Below, piece after piece: positions 9,936-59,206 of a stretch of DNA of 64,000 nt. The translations under genes and the position numbers were made by a program. Location: NCBI GenBank assembly GCA_960531495.1, contig OY482862.1, positions 186,001 to 250,000 on the forward strand, written 5' to 3'. How positions within the stretch are numbered: position 1 is the first letter of the stretch; the number at the start of each line of letters is the position of its first letter. The notes below the pieces were generated by a model that made no database searches, was not told the DNA's origin, and was given only the letters and a program-made list of their open reading frames with translations. The stretch comes from Zeus faber. Taxonomy: Eukaryota > Chordata > Actinopteri > Zeiformes > Zeidae.

Positions 9936-11082
9936 GTTTGTTAGTTGGAATGTGAGAGGCTTGGGCTCACCCACTAACCAAGATGAACTCCAGCTTCTGT
10001 CTACTGCAAGAAACCCACCTCACTGCATCTGAGCACCTCAAACTCTTAGCTAAATGGATAATCAGATGTTTTCCGCATCATACAACTCAAAAAGAGGTGT
10101 ATATATATTGATAAATAAAAGTATCCCATATCAAAATAAAACCACAATATCGGACCCAGAAGGGCGTTTCATAATGATTAATGGGATTTTAGGTAACATC
10201 AAATTAACCATAGCTAATATTTATGGCCCCATTGAGGATGACCAAAATTTCTTCCACAATATATTTTCTAAACTTTTAAAATTTTCTGAATCAATTACTG
10301 TCTCATATTGGGAGGAGACTTCAACACAGTACTGAATCCAAATTTAGACCGTTCTCAAACCAGAAATATTTCAAATCCTGGTGTTCGTCGGACACTATAA
10401 AACAATATATGAGTGATCTTGCTCTTGGGGATTATTGGCGATCAAATAACCCACATTCTGAAGAATTCACATATTACTCACCACCCCACCAAAGTTTCTC
10501 TCAAATCGACCTTTTCTTAACAAGTTACTCTCCACTGTCCAAAATCACTAATCCATAAATCCACCCTATTGTAATTTCCGATCACGGGCCGATTAGTTTC
10601 AACCTGATAAATGAGACACACTGGAACCCTCCCGGCAGGTGGCGGTTTAACACCTCACTTTTGACAGATTAAGAATTTAATCATTTATTTTCCAGAGAAT
10701 GGACTTCCTTCATTGAACAGAATGACTCCCCAGAAATATCACCAATCTTACTTTGGGAAACAGCTAAGGCCGTTCTAAGAGGTAGTATTATTTCATTCTC
10801 CACTCACACGAAAAAGAAAGGACAAGAATGCCAAAATAAACTCGAACAGCAACTAAAGGAGTTGCCCACTCTTGCCCACCCCACTCATTTTATGAGCAAA
10901 TCCAAAATGAGCTCAGGACAATTACCTCTCAACTTGAAACAATCATCCATCAAAAGACAAAAATTTTTATGACACGAACACTAGCAAATTATTATGAATT
11001 CAATGACAAATCAGGTAAATTTCTTGCAAATCAATTGAAATGAAAAATCACTTATTACAGCCATCAAAGATTCACAGGGTAC
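9936..11082 (+). pseudogene. L1-A ORF2, endonuclease part
   Basis: The + strand reads KFVSWNVRGLGSP at about 9,938 (start of an apurinic-type endonuclease), then LQETHL, a longer open stretch from 10,054 with INKSIPYQ and LTIANIYGPI, and further on SFSQIDLFL and ISDHGPI (the SDH-type active-site box near 10,580). This enzyme nicks the target to prime reverse transcription. Frameshifts and stops are frequent. The segment ends at 11,082 because provirus ERV1 is inserted there; ORF2 resumes at 25,454. Confidence 0.82.
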
Positions 11083-11547
11083 TGTAGTTTAGTTTCTTGA
11101 TGGGTGTGATGTGCTGAAGAATGAAGGAGTGACCGCTGACACTGACTTGAATAAAATAATAATTTTATTACACAAATCAGCATCAAACCAGACTTGCCAT
11201 GGATGTCCTGGGAGAGACCCGAGCCGGATGGAATCTCTGCCAAGTGACGCTCTGCATTCCCTTTTAAAGCTGTACAGAGATAACATACCATCTCTGGTTC
11301 CAACCCATAGGTGCCTGCTCAGCCTATGTCCTGTCATAAATCTAAACATTTCCTCCTCTGGTCGAGCTGGAGGAATAAACAAAATTCCTCTCCCATAGGA
11401 CCTCTGAATAGACCCATTGTTGTTTTCGTTCTTCGTATGACATCGAGGCAATAAATCTAATACTAACATAGTTAATATTATGACCGCACTATATCTCAGC
11501 TTTGGGAGCTCAGTGACCTATTCACCTCAAACCTTCCAGACACCTCA
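11083..11547 (-). repeat. ERV1 3' LTR
   Basis: 465 bp, begins TGTAGTTTAG and ends GACACCTCA on the + strand. On the transcribed (minus) strand a TTTAAAAG TATA-like box lies near 11,262-11,269 and an AATAAA poly(A) signal lies near 11,162-11,168, in the order expected for U3-R-U5. The only sizeable open frames in it are repeated in the other LTR and show no protein similarity. Confidence 0.93.
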
Positions 11548-11560
11548 TATTCCCCCCTTC
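11548..11560 (-). promoter_or_regulatory. ERV1 polypurine tract
   Basis: On the minus strand CGAAGGGGGGAATA directly precedes the 3' LTR. This is the standard position and composition of the plus-strand primer site of retroviral reverse transcription. Confidence 0.85.
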
Positions 11561-12567
11561 GAGACTACACAAAGTCTCGACAGAGAGAAGAGTAATTGAA
11601 CATACGATGTTAATTGGCTTAATAGAAATCACTTAATAAAAAACACAATTGGTTATAATATACCCCTCTGACCATGCTTAGTCATAGCAATACAGCAAAT
11701 TTGTGGAGTGTGAAAGCGAAAAAACCCATCTGGCAGCTTCCTTTCTTAGAACATCCATCAATCAATCAAAGACAGGAAAATTCTCTCACGGTCCCTCTGC
11801 CCCAGGCAACCACCTAAGGTACTCCAAATCAATTAACAGAAAAAGACGAAGGGTTTAGAATACTGTATAGGATGTTACATATAAATGCATACATTTAGAG
11901 CCTCAGAAATAAATCAAAAAATGTGTCCAAAGTCAGGCTGGTCGACCCATCGGACCTTCCAGTGGACCTTTCCCTGCCTAGCACCAATGTCCCTCAAAAA
12001 CCGCAAAAAAAAGAAAATACCTGAGGTCCCAATGTATTCACTTCATCCTACTACAGACAACTCAAAGAAAACAATAGCAAATCAAAGTAATATGTCTTGC
12101 TAAAAATATCTAGCGTAGAGTACAGGATATTCATCAATAATACAGGTTACATTGTAGTAAACAAACTCCAATTTTATAAAAACATTCAGGACAAATATGT
12201 ATGTATTGAACTGTTGCTTTTTAACACCATCAACTTTTAATGATATTTCACTCGACACTCCTGATCATGATGTCTTCATTCAGGGTCCACCGTTCATTTT
12301 CCTCCTCCATTTTCGAGTGTCCATGTTTGAATGTTCAAGTCCATTAGGCTGTTAGGATCTCTGGACACAGCCATCCTCTGACTGGTCCTGAAAGAAAGAA
12401 TCACCAACCAGTATCTTGCACAAACATCAAATACAGTATAATAATTTGCACTTTTGCATTATACTTTAACATTATTCCAATATATGATTAACTTTTTCCT
12501 TTTCCCCCCTTTGTCCATGTATTTCCCTTGTTAACAATAGTGTTGAGTAAATGATGGAATCACATAT
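11561..12567 (-). other. ERV1 region between env and 3' LTR
   Basis: About 1 kb of AT-rich sequence downstream of env on the element's strand. No conserved open frame or accessory gene is recognised. This is longer than in simple gammaretroviruses, where env usually ends near the polypurine tract. Confidence 0.6.
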
Positions 12568-14220
12568 TCAAAATGGGTATTTCTCTGCTAGTGTTAGCTC
12601 CTCCTTTATCACTATTTCCTCCTCATCTTCCCCGACATCCTTACCACCCAAGAGTGGCATCTGAACACTTTCTCCCGGCATTACAACTCCTACCCGTCTC
12701 AATATCATGGCCTTAGCAAAGGTCAACACCACCGTACAAAAACAAAACATCACACACAGTGATAAAAGAGCAGCCCCCATAACCTGAGCTACTATAGCTC
12801 CTAATGGTCCTAATTTGTCTTGCAGCCAAGCATTAGCTGACCACCCAGCTCCTTTTAATGGCCCAAACGCATCCCGTATACGTTTTAACGCATCTATGAT
12901 GTTAGTCATATTGTCAGAGCCATCAGGAATCAACGTATAACAGTCATCTCCGGTTAGATTTAAAGCCACGCAAAGGCCACCTTGTTTGGCCAAAATGTAA
13001 TCAAGAGCCATGTCGTGTTTCATCAACGTCAATCGATGACTCCTCTGTGCGTTCGACAAATAATCAAAACCTCTTATGGTCTCATTTGCAAACCCTTGTA
13101 GAGTATACGTGATATTATCAATATGATCAGCTAAGAATGTAACCCCGTACCATGGAAACAATCCTATAGCCCATTTTTCTCCTAAAGATATCCTCCAATG
13201 ATAAGACTCCAAATTGTGAAATTGTGCCAACTCTCTTTTCTTCCTACTTTTGGCAGTCTTTGCAGAATCACCCTCATCTGTCTTTTGTCCCTTCTGAAGA
13301 ACAAAAACATCATAAGGAAGTTTCAACTGTGCCATATAGCAACATCCAGTCCATCCATACGGCAGAAATAAGTATGCTTTATCTCCACATACCCACCAAA
13401 TATCTTTGAATGTTCCTATAGTTACATTACCCGGTAAAGTTTGATTCTTTACGCTCAATGTTTTACTGTGACGACTATTTGGCGCATGAAAGGTCACTCT
13501 ATAAATTTCACCAGTTGTTCTTTTTATACTTTTTCCAAATTCCATCATGTAGATTTCACATTCTGATATCCCCATAAACATACCATCTCCTTCATGAGTA
13601 TCATTAGAACAAAAGCAGTCTATACCTTTTGCAGGTGCCACTTCCATCGCTTCAGGTGTTGCTGTTCTAATATCTTCATACTTATCAAGAAGATTTAAAT
13701 ATGGCAATTCTCTCAACCAGGAACACTTACGTTCAGGTCTAAATAGCTTAACCGACAGAGCCAGCCATACATCATTGGCTGCTTGTTGTCTGAATAGCAG
13801 CCACGATAATGCATTACTTTGACATTCAGACGTCAAAGGTTCCGGTACTGTCTCTAGAATTGATGGCCATGTGCCCGGAGCTGGAACTTTCACTACACAC
13901 GGACAATTGGAATTAGTAGTTATTCTAACGGAGTGAGTGATCTGTTGGAACCACAGATTTCTCTTAGCCCATGGGTCTATTATTTGCATCGCCGAGGAAT
14001 CAAACCCATATGCTTTCCACTGGGTTTCTCGCTTCTTTAAAGCATGAAGATGATCAGTCATGTCTTCTGATGTCCACTCTGGTTCAAGAAAATCATTAAC
14101 CACATTTGTCATCGTCATCTGAGCTATTTCTCCTGAATTACTATCAATCTCCTCAGCAATTGGCTCTCTAATTACAGAGCTCTCCTTGCTATTATTTAAC
14201 TTAATTTCCAACTTCGCCAT
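12568..14220 (-). pseudogene. ERV1 env (surface and transmembrane region)
   Basis: This part encodes the fusion glycoprotein region. Visible features in order: a cysteine-containing surface region with WWVCGDKAYLFLPYGW and GCCYMAQL (comparable to the surface/TM contact region), a furin-like site KSRKKR, then the TM subunit with a hydrophobic segment WAIGLFPWYGVTFLA, a heptad-repeat region, LAKQGGLCV followed by a spaced cysteine (a gamma-type disulphide loop region), and a long hydrophobic anchor (GAIVAQVMGAALLSLCVMF). A cytoplasmic tail with acidic residues follows. The type is gamma-like Env as in several fish proviruses. It sits downstream of the Ig-like domains and is treated as a fossil part of ERV1. 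Confidence 0.88.
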
Positions 14221-14241
14221 AGAATTCTGAGTTATATTTAT

Positions 14242-15815
14242 CTACTTCTCAGATGATGGGGATGTAGCGATAGGTGTCAGTGTCTTATCTACAGACATTT
14301 TAGATACCAAAGAAGTCATCAGTGTTTTATAGGTGGTGGATCTCATCCTCACAACCTCTCTTGTATGATTACCGAGAGTTACAGAAGTAGAAGTTGTCAT
14401 CATCGTAGTAGTAACATCATTTTCTGCCAATGTTGGGGCTAGAGTGGTAACTGACAATGATACGTTAATACTACTAGTTATTCCCCGAGCTAAGGAAGTA
14501 GATGTCCTCGGTCCAACAGTCACCCTTGGTGTGACTAGTTGTTTTTGGGTTTCATTAGCAATCATGCTTACTTCTTTAGTAACCAGACCTTTTACTACCA
14601 GCATTATCTTACGAGTTCTGTATCCCGCTTCCCAATAATTTTGTCTTGGGACGTATTTAAACTCTGGATCCAAATATGTGCATGTATATTCTCCTTGATC
14701 TTCCCATAGTACATTATGTACTACAAGTGAACAGTCATTTTTAACTTAACATTCATCAACACAAACTTTCGTTGATTGCGAGGCACACTGCTAACCTCAG
14801 GTACTGCTAGCACTATGTCTTCACCACGCGCATTTTTCCATTTGCGGGAGATATTTCCACCAGTATTCCATGTAGTACGTTTACATGGAAGGTTAGCTGT
14901 ATTTCCTAATTTAGTTCTAATCACAGTATTCACTGAAATTGAAGTTGTTGGAATCATCTGAGGCACAGCAGTAGTTAACTGCAATTCCTCTGTAACATTG
15001 GTGAATTTCAAACCTAACAAGGCAGACGTCTGCTTTGTCTCTTCAGTTGGTGGGGGAGTTGATACTTCAGTTATTAATTTTCCTACTTCTTCAAAAACTG
15101 TGGGCTCTACAATTTTACTTTCATTCAATACCACAAGAGTCACAATTTTATATCTGTAGTCAGGCTTTCTTTGCACTCCATCCTCTCTCACAATCACAAA
15201 TTTAGGATCAAAATAAGAACACTTGTAGTCTCCTTGATCTTCAATCTGGGGTCTACGTAGATAAAGACTACAGTCATCCTCCATCTTCAGCCTTCTTCGA
15301 TCATTTAGCAGCACATACTTCTTTAGCGGTGACGTTCCGGACAAGTCAATTACCTTCCCATGGTTATCTTCCCACTGGACTTGAACTTCCCCTTTTTCAT
15401 AATTTTCTTTGGTACACTGACATGGCAGCTGAACTGACTTTCCCAAAATCACTTCAACTCTAGTCCTCGTATCGTTTTGGTTTAACCCTTTTTCGAGATT
15501 GTCTTGGACTCCTGGGTCCAACTGGGTCGGTACACTTTCCTGGAGAGGTGTCACAGCCCTCTGGAGTCTTTGACAATTCATTTTCTCTGGGATTAGACTC
15601 TGTTGTGTCTGGGACATGTTGTAAATCAATGTCACCGAAGTGTCTTTCTTGCTCAGGGACTGACAATTCATCCCTGGGATCATCAAAAGTGTGCTCATCA
15701 ACATTAAGCACACCCACATCATCGCCAATCCCTTCTTCTGGGTCTTGACCTCTGAGGTCCTCATGAACCTCTGTTGTTTCTGCAGCTTCTGTTGGCTCTC
15801 TTGAGCTTTAAACAT
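14242..15815 (-). pseudogene. ERV1 Env N-terminal extension with two Ig V-like domains
   Basis: Starts at 15,815, overlapping the end of integrase by a few bases, the usual place for a retroviral env start. A hydrophobic signal-like stretch (MMWVCLMLMSTLLMIPG) is followed by an Ig V-set-like domain at about 15,125-15,460: ILGKSVQLPC (B-strand Cys), VQWED (C-strand Trp), SLYLRRPQIEDQGDYKC (E and F strands). The two cysteines are 67 residues apart, normal for V-type folds. A second domain at about 14,585-14,940 shows LGNTANLPC, a Trp and DQGEYTC. Both domains continue with a similar D-P-[KE]-F block, so they look like a tandem duplication. A Ser/Thr-rich stalk (about 14,242-14,560) then leads toward env. 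The domains could mediate receptor binding or immune evasion; that is inference. This part is broken. Confidence 0.8.
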
Positions 15816-18800
15816 TTCTGCTCAGGGATCGTGGCGCCTCTTCGTTTGGCGCTCTAACACAATGCGATAAATGGTACCATGTAGGAGAACCTTCAACCTG
15901 AACCGCAGTTCCTGTACTGCGAACAACTTTGAATGGTCCTTCGCGGCTTTCGTTAAACCATTTCCTCCTAAACACTTTCACGAATACCTTGTCTCCAGGT
16001 TGCACCGCGTTCCTCTTTTGCTCATCAAGTCTCTCTAGCACCTCCTCTTGTTTTTGCCTGTCAGAGACATATGTGTGTATTTTCTTATGCAGTGTAGCCA
16101 TGTAGTTAACATACACTCGCATTTCATCTTCTAAAAGGGCTAAGCTTGGACCCTTTCCACTTGTGCGCAAACATGGTGTTGGCATCCGTCTACCCGTGGC
16201 TAACTCATGGGGTGTCATTGCGCAAATCACGGAGCCCACTTGAACGGCACACCATTAATGCCAACGGAAGCGCCTCTACCCAATTCAGACCTGTGTGCTG
16301 ACAGATTTTAACCATGCGATTTTTCAGCACACCATTCATTTTTTCACAAACTCCTTGGCTTTGTGGATGATAAACAGCTCCTAAACGTTGTTTAATTCCC
16401 AATTTTTGCAGAATTAATTTTACTGTTCTATCCACGAACTCTTTCCCATTATCTGAGGATATCCGATCTGGAAGTCCCCACCTGCTTATGACCTCACGAC
16501 ACAAGAACTTGGCAACCGACTGAGCATCTTTATGCTTGGTTGGACATGCCTCAGGCCACCGTGAAAATCTATCCACGACGACTAGCATGTATCTTTTGCC
16601 TCCTATTGGTCTTTTCATGTCAACAAAATCCACAACCAACTCACGCATAGGACCTGTCGGAGTTGGAATGTGACCGGGTGGACTCAACACACCCCTCCGA
16701 ACGTTATTTTTAAGACAGATTGTGCATCTGCCTATGACATAATCAATTTGCTCAAGCAAGTACGGTGCCCAAAAACTATACTCTTTCGTGATCTTTCTCC
16801 TTACCTCCCCCCTTGCAACATGGGCTAACCTATGTGCTTCCTGAATCATCAGACCTAGTAGGTCAGGGGGTGCTACCATCAGTCCTTCATGATTTCTCCA
16901 CAGACCAGCAGAATCTTGTGTGGCCCCTCGGGCCAACCATAATTGTTTATCGATGGCTGACGCCGCTTCTTGCATCGCGATCACATCTCTGAGCGTGATT
17001 TTATCTTCCAAGTCCACTTCATGAGTGACCAGAAGAACCTTGCCTGCTTTGTTTGCTCCTGTAACTGCTTTAGCAGCCTCATCAGCCGCTTTGTTACCTT
17101 GTGTGACCCTTGACGTGTCCATTTTGTGTGCTGCACACTTAGCTACAGCTATTTCCTTTGGTTTCATCATTGCATGCAACAATTTCATTATTTGGGCATG
17201 ATGCTGTATCGGAGAACCATCGGTTTTCTTAAATCCTCGATTTTTCCATACTGATCCAAATAAATGACACACATTATGTGCATATGCCGAATCTGTATAT
17301 ATTGTCACTCGCTTGCCTTCGGCCAATAGAAAAGCTTCAGTCAGGCCCACAAGCTCGGCAAGCTGTGCAGAAGCAGGTTGTGGTATTACTTCTGCTTTCT
17401 CAACAACAAATTCAGTTCCCTGGGCTTTGACTACTGCATAACCAGCACTCAATGTGTCTCCTATTCGATAGCAGGACCCGTCAGTCCAATACTCCACATC
17501 TGACACATGCAGTGGGAAAGCTTGCAAGTCTGATCTGAGCTTTGCATATCTCTCTACTTCCTGAATACAATCATGTGGCTCTCCATCCCCTGGTGTTGGT
17601 AAATTATCAGCTGGATTTACCGTGACGCACCTTACTAAGGTGACATCTTCCTGCTCTAAGAGCCTATGATAGTCTCTTAGCCTAGACATAGTCAATGTAC
17701 ATTTACCGAAGTTCAAAAGATTTCTGAGACTATGATGGGTAAGAATTGTCACTGGGTAACCCATAGTTACTGATGATGCTTTCTCATACATTAGATAAAC
17801 TCCCACCATTGCTCTGTAGCACAGTGGTAGCCCCGATTCTACTTCTGAATAGGCAGTAGAATAATACGACACAGGTTGAGGACTTGTCCCTGTACCTGTT
17901 GGCTGACAAAGAACTGCACATGCATATTTGCCTCCAGTGGATGTAGCCACATACAGCAAAAAGTTCTTAGCGTAGTCTGGCAGCGCTAGCGCTGGAGCTT
18001 CTTGTAGCCTCTGTTTGATCGTTTCAAATGCCATAAGACCTTCCTGGGTCCAGGTGAGGTTACAATGGAGTTGAGCATTCCCAGTCTCTTTAATCATGGC
18101 TCTCAAAGGCCCTGTTAGGCAGGCATAATCTTCTACCCAGGCTGAAGAATATCCCGAAATGTCATCATCTCTCTGACTGTTCTAGGCTTTGGTGCCGTTC
18201 GAATGGCTTCCAAATGACTCTCAGAGATGCTTCTGTGTCCATGGGTTATTGTTTGACCCAAATAAACAACTTTTTCTTGACAATACTGTAGCTTTTTCTG
18301 AGAGGCCTTGTGTCCTTTGTCTGCCAATTGCTGTAACAGTTTGATTGAATCCTCATGGCATGTTTCCTTATCCGGTGAACAGATGACGATGTCGTCCACA
18401 TACTGAATGACAGTACTTTTCAAGATCTGATCAATCCCAGCCAAGTCATCTTGCAATACTTTATTGAAAATGTGAGGGCTATGTTTGAATCCTTGAGGGA
18501 GCCTCTTGTACTTGAAGGTTTGTCCTTTGTACGTGAATCCAAACAACCCTCGACTTTCTTTGCTCAATGGAACACTGAAAAATGCTCCACACAAATCCAA
18601 CACTGTGAAGTGTGTAGCCTCTGGAGGAATTTGGGCTAACAAGGTATGTGGATCTGGTACATCTGCTGGAAAATCCTGCACCACTTCATTTATCGCTCTT
18701 AAATCATGTACCAACCGGACTCATCTGGTTTCTTTAAAGGCAATATAGGTGTATTGCTCTGAAGATCCAAACATATTTCCACTACACCTGCTTTTAACAG

Positions 18801-19934
18801 TCCTTCAATTTGTGGTTCAATCCCTTTGATTGCGTCCTCCTTTAGTGGATATTGGTTCTTCCAAGGAGGTTTGGTTCCTGGTCTCAGTTCAACTCTCACC
18901 GGTTGGGCTGACTTCACAAGTCCGATGTCAGTACTATGTCGTGACCACAAACATTCTGGAATTTGTTGCAGCATCTCCTCTCTCATGCTGTCTGAGTCCA
19001 ATTTAGCGCTGAACATTGACTCATGTGTCATCTGTATCACTTGTGGTTGTCCTTGTCCTTGAGCTGAAATCATGATTTTCATGAACTTCTGTTCTTCACT
19101 TATCCAGATAGCAAGATTCTCCTTTATTGGTGAAAAAATGGCTTCCTCAGCTTCTGCCATCATTTCTCCTATTTGCTTCTGCTCAAATCCTTCAGCCACC
19201 ATTAAAGTCAGATGTGGCACACTTTTCACAATTTCAAACTCTTTCTCAAGATATTCATTGATGTTTATCTTCATAGCTGCTCCTTGTGGTCCCACAATTA
19301 TGCAGCATGAGGTCAGCTGAACATGCTTCGGTTGACTACTCAACCATTCTTCTGGATCCAATTGGTCAGCTTTCTTGAAATATTTCAACATGCAATGATG
19401 TGGATACTCAGGGGGCTTAGCATCAGGCATATTTGCCACAATGAACTTCTCCCACATCTTGGCTGGCTCTAATAGCTCTAGACTAAGATTTCCAATCCAA
19501 TATACTGAAGAAGTCTCGGTCTCTGGTGCGCTAAATAATTGGTGGTAGACATCAGGTGGCACATCCACCAGACGGCCGTCCGGTGTACACCGTATTGTGC
19601 AATTTAGTTTGCACATAGCATCTCTTCCCAAGAGTGCAATGGGCGTATGTTCTGACACCAAAATAGGTAGTGTGATTTTCCGATTTCTACAGCAGAGCTC
19701 AATTGGTTTTGTGAGAGGAATCAGCTGTTTCACACCCTCAAACCCGATTGTCCGTACCAATTGGTCAGACATGGGGAGATGTATAGCATCTTCAGGCCGA
19801 ACACAGGTGAAAGCTGCTCCGCAATCTGCCATTACTTCCAATGACTTATCATTTATTTTCACCTCTATTTTTGGATCTTGCTCCGGCCCTGATACTACCA
19901 GCTGACACCTCCCTTTCGAGTCTTCTGGGCACCC
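15808..19934 (-). pseudogene. ERV1 pro-pol region
   Basis: Order on the minus strand: protease (about 19,560-19,860; GAAFTCVRPED flap side and LLGRDAM), an extra segment of about 190 residues (about 18,970-19,535), reverse transcriptase (about 18,130-18,970; VLDLCGAFFSVPL, LPQGFKHSPHIF, QYVDDIVI), connection and RNase H (about 17,000-18,100; YWTDGSCYR, IYTDSAYAHNV), then integrase (15,810-16,900; a zinc-binding H-C type region, VDFVDMKRP, SSDNGKEFV, YHPQSQG and a C-terminal SH3-like PGDKVFVKVF). The RNase H and integrase style is gammaretrovirus-like. It lies in the gag frame and starts right after the gag UAG, as in viruses that make Gag-Pol by read-through. The region is broken and regarded as a fossil. 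Confidence 0.9.
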
Positions 19935-22055
19935 CTAGAAACCAGGTTCCGGACCCCTGTAAGGGTTCGCTGGTCCCCTGGGTGGCTGTGGTTGTCCTCT
20001 GAAGCCTCCTCTGAAGCCTCCTCTGAACCTGTAGCAGTCACGTACAAAATGACCTTGTTGTCCACAATTATGACACGCTCCTTGAGACTGTTGGAAATTT
20101 CCTCCTCTTCCTCTTCCTAAATTTCCTTGGCCTCTTCCTCTCCATGTTTGTGGTTGGTCAAAAACTGGCTGTGGAAAGGAGACAGTGGGGACCACAGGTG
20201 GTAGAACCTGAATCTGTTCTTGCTGTGGTTGTGGTGGTACTTGATTTGATTGTGACTGGCTCTGCATAACCACAGCTTGTTTCTTTTCCTTCTTCTTGTT
20301 ATCCACCAACTGTATTTGGTTGAGTTTTCTGAGAGTCTCCTGGTCCTGTTCCTTCTGGTCATGCTCCTTTTTCCGATATAGCTCTACTTGATGTGCTATG
20401 TGGTCCGTATAAACACTTTTGGTCATGCTTCCAAGACCAACCACTTCTGCCAATTTGCTCCTCACTTGTAGAGGCAGCCCCTTCTGTATTTTAGCTCGGA
20501 GAATCGATTTCGCCATTTGATTCAGTTCTGGATCATTTCCTGTGACATTTCTCCACACTTGATGAGTTCTTGACACATAAGCTCTTGGATTTTCCTGTGG
20601 GCCCAATGCCTCGATAAAGATGTTGTCCGGGTGTACGTTTGTTGGAAAAGCATCTTTCAATGCTCTCCACATCCGACCTCTGCTTGCAGCAAACAATTCT
20701 GGGTCATATACAGCAGTTGCCACGTATCTGTTAAGGCCTGCCGTCTGCAGGATCTCTTCCATAGCTGGGACTCCAATGAGGCTAGCCAGAAATCTCTTAA
20801 TATCTCCATATTAAGAGATTTCTAATAGATCCATGGATGCGCTCCATCTTGAAGAGTGGGTAACTTTTCAAGTATGTTAGACATATCTGTATTCTGCCAA
20901 GGCTTGTATTATAAATTTTGTCCTCGAATTATCACTGGACACATTTTGTTGGGTCTCTTTCCTTTTCTTGGACGTAACCCATACCTCAACGTGTCTGGCT
21001 TTTGAGGCTTTTTCTTCTGGAGTTTCTTCTCTGTTAATTGCAATTCGTGTAATTGCCTTTCCAATACTTGTTGAACTTCTGGACAGGGGGAGTCACTTAT
21101 GTCCTCAAGGCATCTGTCTATACTCCTCTCAATCTCTCTTAAAATCATGCGTCTGTCATCTCCTACCACAGTTCTGGCTGCTAACGGTTGAAAACAGGAA
21201 GGACCTTCTTTCTCCGATTCTTCATCGCTTTCACCCTGTTCACTTTCATCCCTGTCGTCCGTTCCTGGTGACATTTTCCTCACTGGTCGATCTCCCTTTT
21301 TCTCTGCTTTAGCCAACATCCGTCTGACTGCTGGGTCGTATCCTCCAATAGCTTCGTCAGAGTCACTCCCAATTTCTTCTCCTATTTTCCAGACTTCTGA
21401 CTCGTTGTTGGCTTCCCAGACGGTTCCTTCTCTTGGTACTGTTGGAGCTTGGATACATCTTTATGGTTGTTGTAGCCTTGCCCATTTCTATTATTTGCTC
21501 ATCTTCATCTTTGCAGAGATAGTTGCCTTCCTGTGTAATCACTGGGAGCTGGGGATAAACATCAGTGAACTTCACCTCCTCATAAGGCGGGGGCTTCTGT
21601 AAAGATGCTGTATGTGAGAAGGGCGTGGTAATCTTCTCCATCAATTTTTCTGTTTCCTTTTCATTTTTCTTTATTTCTTGTCTACTTTGTTCTCTTTTTT
21701 CCTTTGCAGCTTCGAACCATGTCTGTCCCTCCTTTGCAAACAGTTGCAGAATGCCAAGTTCTGTTTTTCTTTTCTCCGTGCGTCTCTTTCCTTTCTTGCC
21801 TTTCTTTTGATTTACTTTATATGTGGACACAAGCACCTGCATTGTTTTAATCACATCCGGGTTAAGAGTTCCTTCAACTGGCCATGGTTGTTCAATGTCC
21901 GGCCAACGCTTGCTCCATTTTCCTGATATTTTTGCAATATCTTTAATAAGGGGATTGTTCTTTTGCACTACATCAATAGGAGTGATTACTTTTGTAATTT
22001 TAGTATCCATTTTTGACATCCTATTGACTCTTATTTTTCTTTTATTGTAAATCAA
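19935..22055 (-). pseudogene. ERV1 gag region
   Basis: Matrix-like N-terminus near 22,000 with WPVEGTLNPDVIKTMQVL, a Lys/Glu-rich segment, a PPPYEEV late-domain motif at about 21,578-21,598 (binds Nedd4-type ubiquitin ligases during budding in known retroviruses), a capsid region (about 20,350-20,760; PRAYVSRTHQVW and a KGLPLQVRSKL helix), a charged linker, and a nucleocapsid zinc knuckle CHNCGQQGHFVRDC at about 20,035-20,085 followed by RGGFRGG repeats. The layout matches gammaretroviral Gag with one CCHC knuckle. The end of gag at 19,935-19,937 is a UAG in frame with the protease. The region is broken. Confidence 0.88.
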
Positions 22056-24963
22056 TTTGAATTATTTTAAAAATGTCTTTATAAAGCACCGTGTAATCAC
22101 ACTCAACCAACAACAGCTGAATTTGCCAACCCCAAAGGAGACCAATCGCTTCCCACTTATGAAAGCCAATTCACTTGTTCACCATCTGATGCATCTGATC
22201 ACACTCATTTATGTTCAATTATCAAAATTACATCAGTGTTCATTCTCAAAACAGCATAGATAAATCATACCCAGATAATGAAACCAATATTCACAGAACT
22301 CAACAGTATTTAAATCAAATCAGCTTTTCCACATGATCAATCAATCAATCAGTCCATAATACCCTATTAATTAGGCAATCCGTTGCCAAGTCTCTCACTA
22401 AATAATTGCAAATGCAATGTATGAAAAAATACTACTACAAACGCATATGTGAAGACAAGCTAAACACATTTATTATAACTAAATTTATAGGTATATAGGT
22501 AAATGCAGTTGAGGTCTGTTGAAAGAGTTTGTGGATAAAACCGTACTGGCCTTTAATTGGTTTGGATGGATTCAGGATTCCAGAACGTTGTCATCCGCAA
22601 GCCTCAGTGTCTGTGAAGATCTGCCAGATGTCTTGTCATCTGCCCTATGGATGATTCAGTTCAGACTCATTCCATCTTCTCTGTCTTTCCCCCAGCTTTC
22701 ACTCAGCATAGTAAAAGAGAGGAAGAAAGAAAAAAGAAAGAGAACAACAGAAGAGTTCAATGCCTTAGGCTCACTCAAAATTCTTATACACACTGTGATA
22801 CAATTCATTGTGACATACATTATCAGCTTTTTATTTTGCGCACACTTGAAATAAAGCAATGGTTACATTTAATCATGCAATGCATTTAAAGTCCAAAGAG
22901 TATATTAGTCAATCTGATATCACTTTTAATTAGTTATTTTTATTCTATTTATCTATTTATTTTTATTTATTATTTATTTATTTAGTTGTATTTTATCCTT
23001 TTTATCCTTTCTTCTAACTACTGAGAGTACAGAGTAGAGAGGGGGGCTCACCAGCCCCTCTTGTCAGGAGGAGTTAACTAAATTCCACTCTTGTGTGAAG
23101 CACCACCCCTTGCTCCACCTCTTATGTTTAGCAAAGGCTTCCAGTATGGACTGGTCGTCAGCGAGTGAACATCCTGTTTTGGCTTCCATAGGGACAGCCC
23201 AGTTCAATGCAGTTACGCACAGTCGTAAATCAAAGCTGTTTTCTCTCAGCAGTCGAAACACAAAACCTCTTTTCTTGCATCAAGAACCAGAGTCTCCCTT
23301 CACCCCAACAAGACCATCTGCTCTTTTAACCAGACAGGATTCACAGAAATCACCGCCACACACACCCCAAGCACAAAAAGAAAAAGAAAAAACCCACACG
23401 CCAATCAAACAAATCACAAATCCTCCTTCCAATTCAGAGCAGGAAATTTTCTTTTCTTTTCTGGATGTGTACATGTATGTGTAGGCAGACTGTGGCTCTA
23501 GTCCTTCAGAAGGCTCATTTTGTTATCAAATATATAAAGTCCTGTAAAGGTTCATATCCTTTATCAAATGCACAAACGTCCTCGGAAAAAAGGCTCATAT
23601 TTATTTATCAAAAGTCCTTAAAGAAAGGCTCATATATGTTTATCACTAAAGGGGCAAGAAATGTTTCTCTTTATGTATTATTCAACTGCTCACCACATAT
23701 GTATACCTATTTAATAACACATATATTATATATATCACTTACACATACACAAAACATTACACAAAGCTCTTCTACCTCTGCAGCCGCGGCACTTTCACAC
23801 TCACACACACAAAAAGAAAAAGATATGTCTGACCAGCAGAACATCTAATCCCCAGAGGCTTTATGTTTTACTTCGACTCATTTATACTTTTCTAATTTCA
23901 TCAAAATTTTCACTTTGGCCAGACTTTTAAAATTTTACTTTGGCCACACTTTTAACAAATTCTTTTTAATCAGATTCTCTCATCATGCATGTTCACTACT
24001 TCTCCAGAGCAGGTTCTGCCCTGTTTTTCCTCACTTTTCTTTACAAACTTTATTTTTTCATCTTTTGAGCCTTTAACTTGTAACTGTTTTTATTTCACTT
24101 TATCCTTTTCATCTTACTTTAGCTCAAACTTTATTTTTCATCTTTAGCCTTTAACTTGTAACTCTTTTTATTTGACTTTATCTTTTTCATCTCACTTTAG
24201 GCTTTCAACTTTTATCTCTTTTTCACTTTTCATCTTACTTTAGGCTTTTAACTTTTATCTCTGTTTCACTTTTCATATTTTTCATCTTACTTTTAGGCTT
24301 TTAACTTTTATCTCTTTTTTCACTTTACTTTCTTCTTTTTCATCTTTATTCATATAATTTTATTTTGAGTCAATTCCCCTGGCCAGGGTTATTTCCTCTT
24401 GTTTTTTCCTACCTAGATTTGATTATATTATATCTTCATTCGGCCAACTTTCACGCAGCATTTAATGTACACATGTCTTACTGTTTAACGAGATACGGGC
24501 CCTGTCTTCGTTTATCTTACATGGTTATTTAAATAACTTTTGGCTACTAGTTCTGCCATTCTACAATTACTTTTTATTTCTACTTTCTCAACATCTTTTA
24601 AGCCTTTAACTTTTACTTTTAACTTCATTTTTCATTTCTCTCGTCTCTATTCTCTATTTCAACTTCTAACTTTTATTTCTCTTGTCTCTATTCTCTATTT
24701 CAACTTAATTCTCTTTTTCTTCACTTATTATTCTCTTATTCCCCTTATTTACGTCTTTTACATCTTAATTAACCCCAATTTAGACGGAAACTCACTTCAC
24801 ACATCAACACATCATCTCCATCTCCGCATAATCTCAGTGCAGTCTCCCTGCCAAAAAAATAACTGCTCCAGACCACATAACAGCTCAATTTTGTGAGAGG
24901 TCACTTACCCTGAGAGCGGCAGTTCGCTGGAGCAGGCAGCACCGGCAGATGAGGCCCAACAGA
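22056..24963 (-). other. ERV1 leader with tandem T-rich repeats
   Basis: 2.9 kb between primer site and gag, much longer than the leaders of simple retroviruses (about 0.5-1 kb). At 24,030-24,345 an imperfect repeat of about 45-60 bp (core AGGCTTTTAACTTTTATCTC on the + strand) occurs five or six times. A minus-strand open frame at 23,064-23,261 and a plus-strand one at 23,095-23,484 have no recognisable similarity. The rest is AT-rich. Confidence 0.7.
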
Positions 24964-24981
24964 TCCTGATTCGTGACGCCA
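24964..24981 (-). promoter_or_regulatory. ERV1 primer binding site candidate
   Basis: On the minus strand, three bases after the 5' LTR, the sequence TGGCGTCACGAATCAGGA begins with the TGG that pairs with a tRNA CCA end. The tRNA could not be assigned with confidence; the first bases suit several tRNAs ending in GACGCCA-like stems. Confidence 0.65.
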
Positions 24982-24984
24982 CTT

Positions 24985-25449
24985 TGTAGTTTAGTTTCTT
25001 GATGGGTGTGATGTGCTGAAGAATGAAGGAGTGACCACCGACACTGACTTGAATAAAATAATAATTTTATTACACAAATCAGCATCAAACCAGACTTGCC
25101 ATGGATGTCCTGGGAGAGACCCGAGCCGGATGGAATCTCTGCCAAGTGACGCTCTGCATTCGCTTTTAAAGCTGTACAGAGATAACATACCATCTCTGGT
25201 TCCAACCCATAGGTGCCTGCTCAGCCTATGTCCTGTCATTAATCTAAACTTTTCCTCCTCTGGTCGAGCTGGAGGAATAAACAAAATTCCTCTCCCATAG
25301 GACCTCTGAATAGACCCATTGTTGTTTTCATTCTTCGTATGACATTGAGGCAATAAATCTAATACTAACATAGTTAATATTATGACCGCACTATATCTCA
25401 GCTTTGGGAGCTCAGTGACCTATTCAGCTCAAACCTTCCAGACACCTCA
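24985..25449 (-). repeat. ERV1 5' LTR
   Basis: 465 bp, same length and ends as the other LTR, differing at about 8 positions. It lies at the upstream end on the element's strand, next to the primer site. The right flank GTAC (25,450-25,453) is the second copy of the target duplication. Confidence 0.93.
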
Positions 25450-25453
25450 GTAC

Positions 25454-35248: not shown

Positions 35249-36631
35249 ATATATGTTGATGATGATGATGATGATATTAATGATATTAGATTCATTATCC
35301 GAGTCATATAGCTTATAATAAAAGTCTCTATATATGTAATTGATGTCTTGCGGAGTGTATGATATCCTACTCTGTGGATCTTCGATGGCTGTAAGGGTTT
35401 TTTCTCTATTGCGTTTCAGTTGATTTGCAAGAAATGTACCTGATTTGTCACTGAATTCAAAATAATTTGTTCTTGTTCGTTGCCTGAGGAATGAAGTTGA
35501 GATGTAATTGTCCGGATCTCATTTCGGATTTGCTTAGTGGGTGAGTGGGCTTGTTGGGAGTGCAACTCCTTTAGTCATTGTTCAAGTTTATTTTGGCATT
35601 TTGTCTTTTCTTTTCCTTGTGAGTGGAGAATAAAACAATACTACCTCTTTGAATTGCATAGCCGTTTCCCAGAGTAGTGATGGTGATATTTCTGGGGAGT
35701 CATTCAGTTCAATGAAGGAAGTTAATTTCTGGAAAATATATGGTTAAATTCTTTATCTGTTAAAAGTGAGGCGTTAAACCATCACCTGCCGGGAGGGTTT
35801 CGATTGGTTTCATTTATGAGGTTGAAACTAATCGGCCCGTGATCGGAAAATACAACAGGGTGGATTTCAGGATTAGTGATTTTGGACATTAGAGTTACTT
35901 GTCAAGAAAAGGTTGTTTCTAGAGAAGCTTTGGTGGGCTGGTGAATAATATGTGTATTCTAAAGAATGTGGGTTATTTGATCGCCAACAATCGCCAAGAG
36001 CAAGATCACTTATATATTACATTACATTTAGCAGACGCTTTCATCCAAAGCGACTTACAATTGTTAAAACACCGACGGACGCAGACATCAGGAGCAATTA
36101 CGGGTTAAGTGTCTTGCTCAAGGACACTACAGCATGCTAGCAGGAGGAGCCTGGGATCGAACCAGCAACCTTTAGATTACTAGACGACCAGCTCTACCAC
36201 CTGAGCTACCATCCCCTACAATATTGTTTTATAGTGTCCGACACACGCCAGGATTTGTGTTGAAGTTTCCTCGCAATATAATAACTGAGTCATTGAATTC
36301 TAAGAGTTTTGAAGAGATATTTTGGTGGTCCTCATTAGGGCCATAAATTGGCCCTAATATTGGCTATGGTTCATTTGATGTTACCTCAAATTCTGCTAAT
36401 CATTATGTAACGCCCTTCTGGATCTAATATTGCGGTCTTATTTTGATATGGGATACTTTTATTGATCAAGAAACAAACTATTTTTTTTTTTTTTGTTGTA
36501 TGATGCGGAAAACATCTGATTAACCCATTTTGCTTTGGGTTTGAGGTGCTCAGATGCTCAGATGCTGTGAAGTGCGTTTCTTGCAGTAGACAGAAGCTAG
36601 ATCAAATGACAAATAGACAAAGATAAATAGA
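35249..36631 (-). mobile_element. Second L1 copy (inter-ORF to ORF2), antisense
   Basis: Reverse complement matches L1-A from its inter-ORF spacer (36,631) through the endonuclease to the region that in L1-A carries ERV1. Blocks such as TGCTCTTGGCGATTGTTGGC, the steps AATCGGCCCGTGATCGG and ATTTGTCACTGAATTC recur in order. It reads straight through the ERV1 target (about 35,370-35,390) without an insertion, so it records the empty site. It is truncated at its 5' side where sequence X begins and bordered by the Gypsy LTR at 35,248. Coding capacity is lost through many stops. Confidence 0.87.
36016..36216 (-). mobile_element. tRNA-derived V-SINE-like element, complete
   Basis: On the minus strand: a tRNA-like head GGGATGGTAGCTCAGGTGG (A box), GGTTCGATCCC-like B box, then a conserved body with GTGTCCTTGAGCAAGACAC, and a tail GTAAGTCGCTTTGG... 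ending in TAATG repeats. Polymerase III promoter boxes are thus present. It is inserted in the second L1 copy; an ATATT-like target repeat is visible on both sides. Confidence 0.87.
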
Positions 36632-47554: not shown

Positions 47555-48775
<1,221 letters not shown>

Positions 48776-52834: not shown

Positions 52835-53884
52835 ATGGGGTCTACGCCAAGTAAGGATAAACCAGATTGGGGTTCTCCGATCAATATGCGAATGAGAACT
52901 AAAAATGGGGACAAATGCATGTCATGTCTGGAAGACTGGGTCGCGTACGGCGGATTTCCTGTGATGGGAAGTTTAAGTATGACCCAGTTAGGGAAAGTGG
53001 GTGAGAGAATTGCGGAGGAAGAAAAGAGATTGAGAAAGAAAAAGAAAGTGTCGAAGAAAGATTTAGACAGAATGGATGTCCATAAACAATGTCTAGGGAT
53101 ATGGACAAAGAGGCAGAAGCACGAGCCAGAAGTCAGGAAATGGGAAAAAATAAGAGTTTGAAATGTGAAAAGTCTGAAAAACCTGTGCTTGCCACTGATA
53201 CACCCCCCCCCCCCTCTCTATCCGAGTCTGACCCAGGATGATCATGAGAGACGAAGGGACGACTGGGTGCCACCATATCCACCACCTAATGTGCAGCCTA
53301 ATGCCTCCCACGGCCCTTCCAGAAAGCTTCGCGTCCGCATCCTCTGTGTCCACAACTGACGACTCCACCCTGCTGACTTCCCCATCAACACCACCTGCCC
53401 TACCGCGCCCCATGGTGGTTCCAACGTCACCAAAGACTATCCTGTCAGCTCACACACAACTCGGGGAGGCGCTGTTTTCCATGCTTTAACCATGCCATCA
53501 GATTTCCAAGCCCCGATGGTGGAGTTCCCCGGACCGGACGGCACTGCGGTCCTAGTCCATTGCCAAATGGATGGGGAGATGCGCGATTCCATCAAAGACT
53601 GGCCGGATGTCACCCGTGGAGGAAAAGCCCTCGCGGACGTCCTCGGCATCTGGTGCCGTGCATGGCGTCCCACCGGTATGGAATTCAAAAGACATCTCCT
53701 TCTCCACTTTAAGCCAGGAAACTACTCCAGCATCACACGCGATGTAGAAGAAAACAACCCAGACCTGCTCCGACCACGCACCGCCGATTGGGATGATGCT
53801 GACCTGTGGGAAAGATGGGTCGAATCAGTAGTTCCGATCCATCGAACGCAACTTCCCGGTCAGATTCGACATCGGAAAGATTAG
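52835..53884 (+). pseudogene. ERV2 gag region
   Basis: Starts MGSTPSKDK, with the N-terminal Gly typical of myristoylated matrix proteins, then a basic matrix-like region to 53,160, a proline-rich segment with PPPPLYPSL and PPYPPPN (53,200-53,300, late-domain-like), and a capsid-like part at 53,490-53,884 (MVEFPGPDGTAVLVHC, FCRAWRP-type block, LLLHFKPGNYSSI). The layout matches fish gamma/epsilon-like Gag. It is broken. Confidence 0.78.
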
Positions 53885-56460
53885 AGACTGCCGCCAAAAA
53901 CCCGATGAACCAGTCGGGTTTTTTATCATTGCACGATGGACGCTTGCACGTCCTTCTCAGTACACGTTCGTCCTGAAGGCGGTGTAGAATCCCAGGGAAT
54001 GCCCTGAACCACGTTGACGCCAACTGCGCTACCCCAACCCCAAACGCTCAGTGGGCCCCGTTCGGATCTGATCCCCGCCCGTTGGCATCTCCATCACCTC
54101 CACACTCAAAGGGCTGAGGGTTGTGGCGACGCCAACAGATCACACCCATGTCCGCCTCGACGCGGTCCTACCAGTGGTGGATGGGTGCCACCGTTGGCAG
54201 CAGACTGTCACGCGCCGCGGCACCATTTGTTAATCCTGATTCCAATCACATGTCCGCCGAAGATCTCCACTGCACCTCGCACATACACCGCAGACCAGAC
54301 AAAACATACAAGGACGAGTTTTATCGTTAACAAACTGACCGCCTCATCACATCTGATATCTTTTTCAATTCAGAGCGTTGTGTAGTTTCCATACACCACG
54401 ACCCCGACCAACAGTCGTTGTTTACCGTCCCCAATTCAGCCCCACGTCTCTATTTCCAAATCTCCACACCAAACGTCACACACCGGCAGTGTCTTTTTTC
54501 TCCTACGGCGAATGCGTTTAAACTACTATGCGTCGCACCGCTCTCCACTCTCCGAACCGCTCAGCTCGTGCCGGACGAGGCCCACACTGGTCGTTACCTA
54601 TTCAAACCGCCAACACCCTCCGACATCTCCCCGTTGCTGACCCAAGTCCCACCCACTCTGGGGGCGGCTGTCCCCCGGTGCACGTCAAACCCAAATCCCC
54701 GTCACAAAAACAAAATCCATTGCGACAGGAAGCTATCGATGGCCTCACCCCCGTCTTTGAGTCCCTCCTTGACGCGGGAATTATCATCCCATGTGACGAC
54801 TCCCCTGTCCAGACACCTCTATTCCCAGTCAAGAAAATCCGACCTCAAGGGCAGCCCACCAAGTGGCGCTTTGTCCAGGACCGTTTATGCGGCCATCGAC
54901 CCCCCCGCTCCAAATGTTCCCAACCCATACACTATCATGAGTCGAATCCCTTTTTTCTCTGTCCCAGTCCACCCAGACTCCCAGTTTTGATTCGCCTTCC
55001 ACTTCGCTGGAAAATGCTACACTTGGACGTGCCTCTGCCAGGGCTTAACCTGCAGCCCCACCCTCTTCTGCCCGCAGCCTCGCCCCCCTCGTCGTTTCCA
55101 AGGGAACGGCCCTCCTGCAGTATGTGAACGACCTTCTCATCGCCGCTCCCACGAAGGCCCAGTGCGAACAGGACACCCTTACACTCCTGCGGCCCCTCTC
55201 ATCTGAGGGTCAAAAGGTTTCTCTAAACAAACTTCAGTTTGTCTCCCAGAAGGTGGTCTTCCTTGGTCACGTCGTCACCCCTCAGGGAACAACTTTGTCA
55301 AGCCCATCCTGCACCACCGGAAAGTGGCGGCCCTTTTGGAGGCCATCCTCCTCCCCCTCTCCATTGCTGTTTGTAAATGCGCCGCACACACCTCCAACAC
55401 AGACCCCATCTCCCTCGGCAACGCCCGCGCCGACGCAGCCGCCAAGGCCGCGGCACGCAGCCCCCTCCCTCATTCCTCCTCCCTCTACTCATCCACCCCT
55501 TCCCTCACACCCCCCTCCCTCACTGACCTCCTCTCCCTCTCTTCCACAGACGAACGCAGGCTTTGGTCCAGCTGTGGGGCCACCCTCCGCGAAGGCATTT
55601 GGATGAAAAAAACCCTGCCTGCCCAGGCGCCTGTTCCCCTGTTTCGTTAAGTTGTCACATGGTTTGGACCATGTGTCAAAAGGAGGGATGTGCACGGCAG
55701 TACAAACACATTGGTTCACGAACGGCTTTTCCATATTTGCAGCAACATATTGCAACATGTGTGTAATTTGCGCCCAACACAACCCTGGCAGGCCAAAGGG
55801 CCTCACACACCCCGCCGCACACCCAACCCCAACGCGCCCATTCCAACATGTAATGATGGACTTCGTCGAACTTACACCGTGCAGAAACAAAAAATACTGT
55901 CTGGTCATGGTTGACATGTTTACCAAATGGGTGGAAGCTTTCCCCGCCAAACATGCCACGGCGTCAACAGTAGCGAAAGCCTTACTGATAGATATAATTC
56001 CCAGATGGGGAATCCCAGAAAAACTGTCATCCAACAATGGCCGCCATTTTGTAAACAACATCCTCACACAGTCGACGCATTTCCAATTTGATTTAAAAAC
56101 ACACTGCAGCAACCACCCGCAATCTGGGGGTGCTGTAGAACGCGAAAACAGGTCGCTCAAAAACAAACTGGCTAAATGCTGCCGCGAACGAAACGAACGT
56201 CGCTCAAAAACAAACTGGCTAAATGCTGCAGCGAAACGAACGTCAACTGGGTAGATGCGCTGCCCATCGTGCTGATGTATATGAGAATGCGATTGCACCC
56301 GGGAAATAACCTTTCCCCTTTCATGGTCCCTTTTGTAGCTCCTCCCAATGTGGGACTGGGACCTCCACCGATGGAGACCAACCTCTGCGAAGACACGCTG
56401 GTAAGATATTGCATTTCCTTAACCAAATCTCTTTCTGAAATCAGACAACAGGTAGGCTCT
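53885..56460 (+). pseudogene. ERV2 pro-pol region
   Basis: Decayed polymerase. RT-like sequence with HVKPKSPSQKQNPLRQEAID and GLTPVFESLLDAGIII at 54,680-54,790, YVNDLLIAAPTKAQCEQD (the YxDD box region, 55,119-55,175) and KVVFLGHVVTPQG (55,250-55,290). An RNase H end-like stretch is at 55,370-55,450. Integrase is best preserved at 55,790-56,300: HVMMDFVELTPCRNKKYCLV, MFTKWVEAFPAKHAT, WGIPEKLSSNNGRHFV, HCSNHPQSGGAVERENRSLK. A short tandem duplication is visible at about 56,155-56,225. It is a fossil with many interruptions. Confidence 0.82.
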
Positions 56461-56849
56461 GCCTTACCCCAAGCGCCGTCCAACCTGGCACCCATTCCGA
56501 CTCCCCGGCCTATATGCCGTGCGCGGCACACTAACCATTTTGTTTATAATCACTGTAATAATAGTTGCACCTTGGATCTGGTATGACATGCACTCTGACG
56601 CTACACTGACCACCGACCCTGACACCAACGTCACCCCCTCGTTCCGCCCAATTCGCGTTAAGCGCGCCATTTATTCAGGAAACGAACAAACTAGATATGT
56701 CACAGGCGTCATAGAACCTGGTGCGCGGAACGTTACTTTCTCTGCGTGTTGAACGACACTACCCTCGCTGGCGTCATTGTTTACCCCTGCGATTACTTTC
56801 CCCATTCATGTTATGACGATGGACTCACCCTTGGCGGGACGACAATATA

Positions 56850-58318
56850 CACTACTCACAAAAAGTTAGGGATATTCGCTTTTGGGTGAAATTTCAGGAT
56901 GAAATAAAATGCACTATAACCTTTACAGGTGAACTTAATTTGACCTTCTCTAAACTTTTGAATGCACATGTCCAACTGTTCAATGTTTTAGTACTTTTTG
57001 CACAACTTGCTGTTCTCTCACAAGGAGCTGAACGGCAAAATTCACAACAGGTGTTTGATCCATGAATCGACCAATACATTTCCTGGTTCAATTAGAATTG
57101 GTATTTAAACAGTCCTCTTCATCATGCTGTTCACATTTTGACATCATGAGACCAAGATGACACCTAACAACTGATCACAGTACCTCGCCATTGCGAGGCT
57201 TCAAACAGGATGTTCTCAGAGGGAAGTGGCCACTGAGCTTAGATCGTCACAGAGTGACTGCAACAGAGATACAGAGAGACTGGAAGAGTCACAGAAAGGC
57301 ATAGACGTGGATGTCCTTTGGTCACATCCCACACTGATGACCGCTCCATTGTGAACAGTGCCCAGCGGAACCGGATGATGAATGCCACTCAACCAAAGCA
57401 CATTTAAGGGAGGTGAGAGTCACCCAAGTGTCACGTCAGACCATTCAAAACCGTTTACATCAGTGTGGTCTGCATGCTAGACGACCTGCAGGGGTACCTG
57501 ACCACACCACCAGGCACAGGCATCATCGTCTTGCATGGGCCAGGTTGCATTTACGCTGGACGAGGGACCAGTGGGCCTCAGTGCTGTTCTCTGATGGAAG
57601 TCAATTCACGTTGAGCAGAAATGTTGGCCGCCAACGATGTTGGAGACGTTAAGGAGAGCGCTATGCATCAGCCACTGTTGTCACCAGACGAGCCTTTGGT
57701 GGTGGTGGTGTTACAGTGTAGGCAGATGTGTCTAGTCAATACAGAACTAACCTACACTTTGTGAATGGTACAGTAACAAGGCCATACTACCTGAATAACA
57801 TCATTTATCCAGTCATTGTGCCCTTGCATGAACAACACAGGCCTAATTTCATCTTCATGGGCGACAATGCTCCACCTCAAATGGAGTGGCCCGCACTTTC
57901 TCTAGACCTGAATCCCACGGAAAACCTATGGGATCAGCTGAGTCGCCGTGTAGAGGCTCGTAACTCTGTACCCCAGAACCTCAATGACCTGAGGGCCACC
58001 CTTCAAGAAGAGTGGGGTGCCATGCCTCAGCAAACGATAAATCGACTTGTGGACAGCATGAGACGTCGTTGTCAAGCTGTACTTGATGCCCAAGGGCACA
58101 TGACAAGTTATTGAGACATTGACATTTTTTGTTGTGTTATACCCACCACTGTTGTTGGCTTTTGTTTCAATAAATTGTTTGAGATGAGGAAATCACCATT
58201 GCATGCTTCTACTTAAATGCTCTACTTTCATGATATAATATCACTGTAGCGTGAACTTTTTACATTTTCCATAAATGTCACCCGAAAGCCAAATATCCCT
58301 AACTTTTTGTGAGTAGTG
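56850..58318 (+). mobile_element. Tc1-type DNA transposon, copy 2 (both ends present)
   Basis: 1,469 bp with inverted ends CACTACTCACAAAAAGTTAG and CTAACTTTTTGTGAGTAGTG, flanked by TA on both sides (56,848-56,849 and 58,319-58,320). It is the full-length reference for the truncated copy at 4,420-5,690. It is inserted in the env region of ERV2, so it is younger than that provirus. Confidence 0.95.
57146..58114 (+). pseudogene. Tc1-like transposase, inactivated (copy 2)
   Basis: The reading begins at ATGAGACCAAGATGACACC, where the family start MRPR is followed at once by a stop. Later open pieces at 57,413-57,652 (HTTRHRHHRLAWARLHLRWT, LFSDGSQF) and 57,728-58,114 (FIFMGDNAP, SLDLNPTENLWDQL) belong to the same enzyme. 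The catalytic Glu in PTENLW is kept, unlike copy 1, but the first catalytic motif reads FSDGSQF and the segment after DNAP is shortened by about 45 bases relative to copy 1. Small deletions in the N-terminal part shift the frame. Inactive. Confidence 0.9.
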
Positions 58319-58941: not shown

Positions 58942-59206
58942 AAAGACCCCACAAAGACCTAAGAATGAACCTCTGGTGGCGTCTACTGCGCTCCTGGACT
59001 GAGGCCGCAGAAGTTAATAACTCCTGCTACGCCTGCACCCTTTTTCCCCATACAGTGACGGGAGCCCTCCCCGTCCACCCCGTTCCCCTCACTTCTGATG
59101 AATGGTATTGCACCCTCCTTTCACTCACTGATCCCGTAGAGGGCCCAAATAGGTGGTGGCTCGCTAGACCTTATCTACCTTCCCCGTGTTCCCTGTGCTC
59201 TAATCA

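Follow-up and report, generated by a model that had tools for sequence, protein, structure and literature searches.

It is known that large DNA viruses acquire host immunoglobulin (Ig) genes. According to excerpts of PMC4299795, CrocERV31, an endogenous retrovirus (ERV) of alligators, captured nectin3 with its three Ig-like domains, and CrocERV29 carries the KIT ligand as an extra open reading frame (ORF) between pol and env. Similarly, excerpts of PMC8672886 describe some zebrafish ERV-like elements whose interior has been wholly exchanged for cellular genes, immune genes included, for instance igl1c3. It has also been reported that CD4 interacts through an Ig-like domain with the surface subunit (SU) of a zebrafish ERV Env, where this Ig domain is not part of Env (excerpt of PMC10072453), and the excerpts of PMC6001957 and PMC6156844 hold no Ig-Env fusion. 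The window analyzed here is a stretch of 64,000 nucleotides from Zeus faber (contig OY482862.1, positions 186,001 to 250,000), and on its minus strand lies a provirus, the Ig-Env element, in which a tandem pair of Ig domains precedes SU and the transmembrane subunit (TM) of Env. The element resembles CrocERV31 in being an ERV lineage with Ig-superfamily domains at the env position that multiplied with them, whereas in CrocERV31, as excerpted, env was replaced by nectin3, and here SU-TM is kept with the Ig domains fused to it in one frame. In CrocERV29 the captured gene is, by the same excerpts, an ORF of its own, whereas here the Ig domains form the N-terminus of Env itself. The zebrafish elements resemble it in that one of the genes they took up, igl1c3, is judged by its name to be an immunoglobulin gene, but their interior is replaced in the excerpted account, and gag, pol and Env are retained here. 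No earlier report of a retroviral Env with fused Ig domains was found in the open-access literature by titles and abstract beginnings, subscription papers and preprints lying outside this scope; the preliminary description of the locus had also known of no well-described retrovirus with V-set domains at Env, although it did not name the near precedent CrocERV31.

The env region of the window copy is composed as follows, all features being on the minus strand.

14724..15821, minus strand: Env piece 1, a 366-codon open frame with ATG at 15815, a signal-peptide-like stretch, Ig domain 1 (D1), a linker and the first half of Ig domain 2 (D2)
15675..15731, minus strand: hydrophobic core of the signal-peptide-like stretch, at residues 31-49, with a Kyte-Doolittle maximum of 1.95 in a 19-residue span, called by hydropathy alone
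15204..15464, minus strand: Ig V-set domain D1, residues 120-206 of piece 1, Pfam V-set E-value 5.1e-10 (39.9 bits)
14724..14927, minus strand: first half of D2, with B and C strands, from alignment to D1
14590..14745, minus strand: second half of D2, with E, F and G strands, in a frame different from that of piece 1, from alignment to D1
14245..14589, minus strand: Thr/Ser-rich stalk, 22% T and 14% S, with 3 N-glycosylation motifs in 115 residues
14242..14244, minus strand: TAG separating stalk and SU, open in relatives
13234..14241, minus strand: Env SU region to the furin-type site RKKR (residues 333-336), no Pfam family
12571..13233, minus strand: Env TM with fusion region, CX9C (residues 424-434), membrane anchor (residues 490-508) and tail, from phmmer, hydropathy and Cys positions

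In this copy D2 is interrupted by a frameshift and its halves lie in two frames; after the TAG, 557 codons in the stalk frame (piece 3) carry SU, RKKR, TM, the membrane anchor and the tail. The Ig frame had been placed correctly at the outset, from ATG 15815 to its end at 14245 just before the TAG, and the frameshift in D2, the stop before SU and the large family of relatives had gone unmentioned. TM matched, by phmmer against PDB, the GP2 ectodomain (4n21, 2.4e-5) and Syncytin-2 (2.3e-4), and together with RKKR these matches identify a class I fusion TM with a furin-type site. CX6CC is absent from TM, where CX9C stands instead at residues 424-434 of piece 3, and by the Cys positions of that piece SU has no CXXC, no two Cys being three apart.

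Both domains bear the B-strand Cys, the C-strand Trp and DQGxYxC. Against the Pfam V-set family (PF07686, curated cut-off 26 bits), D1 of the window copy lies above the cut-off, the first half of D2 taken alone gives no Pfam match, and the second half alone gives V-set at 0.0082, under the cut-off. Two V-set stretches were found by Pfam in 4/4 uninterrupted relatives scanned (4.6e-15 to 5.6e-16), all taken from a set of 11 re-translated copies, and when the domains of one uninterrupted relative were cut apart, D1 (2.6e-8) and D2 (5.8e-8) were each above the cut-off. The claim of two V-set domains thus stands for D1 in the window copy itself and for D2 by way of the relatives, D2 of the window copy falling short; Ig profile matches are in any case present above the cut-off and not lost in noise. 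The domains had also been regarded as tandem duplicates, and the alignments bear this out: the first half of D2 aligns to D1 with a score of 57 (its shuffles 23.7 +/- 4.0) and the second half with 93 (its shuffles 25.7 +/- 4.5), 0/2000 shuffles being as good in each case, whereas in the control of D1 against SU, with a score of 28, 278/500 shuffles were equally good. The repeat distance from D1 to D2 is 179 residues, and the marks common to both are LPCxC, Trp and DCSL...DQGxYxC, which comprise the usual cysteines of strands B and F together with two further Cys.

The host genome (804 Mb, 153 contigs) was searched for relatives, and 112/439 Ig candidates and 78/926 Env candidates were scored, so the counts are lower bounds, in which a single broken copy can yield several matches. 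The Ig piece has at least 128 matches on many contigs, 14 of which sit in a single uninterrupted 1088-codon frame with all of SU-TM; a separate search with the Env piece gave at least 87 matches, 14 of them reporting the same uninterrupted frame, and 11 of the 1088-codon copies were re-translated independently. Because the relatives hold these uninterrupted frames, the stop and the frameshift of the window copy are not family-wide features. In 32/37 measured loci Ig and Env keep this order at a spacing of 1127-1153 bases, the other five spacings being 603, 603, 916, 1083 and 1095 bases. As a test for Env without Ig, 20 Env loci that the Ig search had not listed were taken with their upstream DNA, some rows whose matches start late being left out of this set; Ig sequence was present in 17 of them, 8 with one domain and 9 with two or remnants of two. 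In the remaining three the signal peptide and the integrase end are missing as well, and since their whole 5' part is lost, they provide no evidence for an Ig-less Env. The Ig-Env layout is therefore a family trait, shared by related proviruses as an open frame and not reducible to ordinary SU with chance cysteines, and the fusion to Env proposed from the window copy is almost certainly a real viral protein. Beyond the host genome, no relative was confirmed among viral contigs with Ig, Env, Pol and domain-alignment queries, and none was found in wider genome contigs with the Ig query. On contig C22 at 3.37-3.84 Mb, five consecutive Ig matches lie ~92-98 kb apart, with one step of ~182 kb, and four score identically; this row suggests a tandem segmental duplication of which the provirus is part.

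The one-domain copies number ten, eight from the further Env loci and two older ones from the spacing measurement (L013, L014, L061, L062, L063, L067, L069, L074, L075 and L076), and in all of them the single domain is a D1/D2 chimera. Nine resemble mainly D1 as far as the LPC motif and D2 beyond it, and L074 has a later junction than the other nine. The spacing was measured in two of the copies, whose region is reduced by 537 bases, exactly the 179-codon inter-domain distance. In a midpoint-rooted tree of 34 SU sequences, which holds 9/10 of the one-domain copies, accounting for the one-domain state takes five changes, at least three of which are imposed by well-supported branches, with the proviso that a single event could have been passed on by recombination among copies; 60 loci had been offered to this tree, 19 near copies being excluded by name and the other missing ones falling under the length cut. 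The simplest reading is repeated in-frame loss of one Ig domain through recombination between the repeats.

The age of the family was assessed from the long terminal repeats (LTRs). At the expected LTR positions in ten near copies, both LTRs were located in eight, and the pairs differ by 0, 0, 0, 0, 1, 1, 2 and 7 positions over 452-465 bases; copies with identical LTRs thus exist in the Ig-Env lineage, and the family was recently active, since four of the eight pairs are identical. Selection was assessed by the ratio of nonsynonymous to synonymous change (pN/pS). In comparison with 15 older copies, which includes neutral decay after integration and to which one-domain copies add some misaligned D1 and linker codons, pN/pS is 0.57 for D1, 0.54 for D2, 0.56 for SU, 0.73 for the linker, 0.79 for the stalk, 0.33 for TM and 0.78 for the part overlapping pol, which suggests that both Ig domains have been constrained about like SU. 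Among 11 near copies, where few changes were counted and the picture is mixed, the values are 0.46 for the overlap, 0.28 for D2, 0.76 for the stalk, 0.86 for SU and 0.34 for TM.

From this organization a function in attachment can be proposed. In this family env encodes a single precursor, which runs from the signal peptide through V-set, linker and V-set to the Thr/Ser-rich stalk, and then to SU, the furin-type site and TM with its membrane anchor. The V-set pair would have been taken from a host Ig-superfamily surface protein; because it lies at the far N-terminus, it is proposed to form the outermost head of the virion on a glycosylated stalk, where it may bind, on target cells, the partner of the donor host protein, after which SU-TM would perform membrane fusion. 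On balance we lean towards this mechanism, in which the V-set pair would bind a host surface protein and SU-TM would fuse the membranes. The fuller statement, that a recent lineage attaches by a captured V-set pair built into Env and has repeatedly changed the number of its Ig heads by in-frame recombination, is put forward more tentatively, as somewhat less than an even prospect. In the domain profile search, of which the best 60 of 343 matches were viewed, otk matched at 1.2e-8, JAML at 1.1e-7 over most of the domain in two stretches, VSIG4 at 2.6e-5 and CD4 at 3.8e-5, the last three being receptors of immune or adhesion type. JAML has two tandem V-set domains, and for this reason it is a lead and no more.

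Several results weigh against attachment by a captured pair. The best profile match, otk, is a receptor-kinase-like Ig protein that matches over 35 positions only, and the matches therefore name no donor. Two AlphaFold predictions of D1, made without an alignment of relatives, have a mean predicted local distance difference test score (pLDDT) of 39.3 and 46.3, too low for a usable model. Pfam recognized no known Env family in SU and TM, either in the window copy or in one relative. Among the near copies, D1 (1.30) and the linker (3.47) show no constraint, so that this comparison is in the same direction as that with the older copies for D2 and opposite for D1; these two ratios rest on 14 and 6 variable codons, respectively, and are too thin alone. 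In addition, the ten one-domain copies multiplied too, and for that reason the Ig pair is not essential. Finally, an extra head may be unneeded for attachment, since the SU of gamma-type Envs already holds a receptor-binding domain.

The main rival explanation is immune evasion, in which the head, as a mimic of a host protein, would engage an inhibitory receptor or shield SU from antibody. An Ig head at the N-terminal end, on a Thr/Ser-rich stalk with N-glycosylation motifs, agrees with such a role, the recurrent shifts in domain number, one or two, might be in keeping with an antigenic shield, and the profile matches include the immune receptors VSIG4 and CD4. However, nothing among these points singles evasion out, and constraint of D1 and D2 like that of SU and above that of the stalk is more readily expected of a binding domain than of a simple shield, with the qualifier that the thin near-copy data are without such constraint for D1. 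Evasion is thus considered unlikely, while still carrying appreciable weight beside attachment.

It is improbable that the two domains represent the receptor-binding domain usual in gamma-type Envs, having become V-like by convergence and without any host capture. The core of the receptor-binding domain of murine leukemia virus (MLV) is a beta sandwich. The position would also fit, being N-terminal in SU and ahead of a linker region according to the layout in the excerpts of PMC9967133. However, each domain is recognized as V-set at 10^-8 with the full set of B-strand Cys, C-strand Trp and DQGxYxC, the best 60 of the 343 profile matches include host Ig-superfamily chains and no retroviral receptor-binding domain, and ~330 residues more of SU come after the Ig domains.

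Very improbable is the explanation that the Ig segment encodes an accessory protein of its own, secreted and ending at the TAG, with Env starting from its own downstream ATG. In the window copy the TAG at 14242-14244 does end the Ig frame, an ATG follows soon after, and the KIT ligand of CrocERV29 provides a model of a separate ORF between pol and env. However, the frame is open through the TAG site in 14 relatives, and the 1088-codon frames refute this explanation for the family. Moreover, SU has no signal-peptide-like stretch of its own by hydropathy in the first 120 residues of its piece, where the best value is just 0.57 over 13 residues, so that the sole signal-peptide-like stretch of env by this measure is the one preceding the Ig domains. 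RNA folding 3' of the TAG is likewise unremarkable (z -0.99). Readings of the TAG as the genuine end of the protein or as a stop overcome by readthrough were rejected as well, the relatives being open there and no special fold lying downstream. An artefact, whether a host exon that entered a single provirus once it had integrated or a fault in the assembly, would be allowed by the window copy by itself but is rejected, with next to no probability left, by the number of relatives on many contigs with the same order and spacing.

The Ig-Env element as a whole extends from LTR to LTR, with the following further features.

11083..25449, minus strand: provirus, from the LTR pair and a 4-bp target duplication
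24985..25449, minus strand: 5' LTR, 465 bases, starts TG and ends CA
11083..11547, minus strand: 3' LTR, 465 bases, starts TG and ends CA
~11549-11560, minus strand: purine-rich tract just inside the 3' LTR
24964..24981, minus strand: primer-binding-site-like sequence 3 bases inside the 5' LTR, called from its TGG start alone
24903..24911, minus strand: splice-donor-like AGG/GTAAGT with GT at 24908-24907, read directly
19935..20810, minus strand: C-terminal part of gag with a CCHC zinc knuckle, Pfam zf-CCHC 6.7e-5, Gag_p30 weak at 0.039
15811..19934, minus strand: pol with protease, reverse transcriptase (RT), RNase H, integrase and an MLV-type integrase C-terminal domain, Pfam RVP, RVT_1, RNase_H, rve and MLVIN_C
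15463..15807, minus strand: acidic tail at the C-terminus of pol, which covers the beginning of env in a different frame and is preceded by a TAA in the window copy

The two LTRs are 98.28% identical over 465 bases (8 mismatches), and the target duplication is GTAC at both outer ends (11079-11082 and 25450-25453). When the flanks of the provirus are joined in silico, they align across the junction to an intact copy of the same repeat at ~35.28-35.72 kb, with 367/472 columns identical (78%). The splice-donor-like site is one that we take to match the splice consensus. From this site to the gag frames, at 22100-24900 on the minus strand, ~2.8 kb hold no minus-strand frame above 80 codons, and a repeated stretch lies within this region at 24044-24346. 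Gag ends with TAG followed by G, and pol continues in the gag frame, a layout familiar from gammaretroviruses. In the window copy pol is split into several frames; its best PDB matches are p80 RT/RNase H and a foamy-virus integrase. With paired LTRs, a target duplication, a primer site, gag-pol-env order and an in-frame gag-pol stop, the element is a provirus of class I type.

The end of pol also bears on where the Ig domains begin. The 119-codon acidic tail of the pol frame covers the first 120 env codons in a different frame (15463-15821, minus strand, and in relatives), and in 12/13 near copies and 2/4 older copies it stays open as far as that end. In MLV, too, the env start overlaps the pol end. 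Since the pol tail ends where the V-set match starts, at residue 120, the Ig domains start at the first pol-free part of env.

Elsewhere in the window, a second, decayed ERV lies at ~53000-60200 on the plus strand; its TM has CX6CC and is ~33% identical to the TM of the Ig-Env element over 101 residues, no Ig domain was found in the three pieces of it scanned with Pfam, and it contains a sequence that we take to be Tc1-like. Two UnaL2 elements of long interspersed nuclear element (LINE) 3' type exceed the Rfam gathering score on the minus strand (36018-36071 and 58743-58796), and a short-period tandem repeat array, seen as overlapping self-matches, lies at 48083-48223.

Viral attachment proteins are often likened to host adhesion molecules. 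If the attachment reading is true, a retrovirus is able to add a binding module of host type to its fusion protein, and this module would be constrained and part of a recently active lineage; the element would then be a natural case of a virus gaining attachment specificity, and its family of dated copies would allow this gain to be studied. Excerpts of PMC9967133 describe how gamma-type Envs are laid out, and the Env of this family shares with them the furin-type site, the Cys motif between the TM helices, the membrane anchor and the N-terminal signal peptide. Unlike the gamma-type Env of those excerpts, it has CX9C in place of CX6CC, an SU without CXXC, and V-set domains at its N-terminus. 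With host V-set receptors such as JAML, VSIG4, CD4 and CD86 it has in common the V-set profile and the hallmark residues, and it differs from them by a further Cys pair in each domain (LPCxC, DCSL) and by the fusion of these domains to a viral fusion protein.
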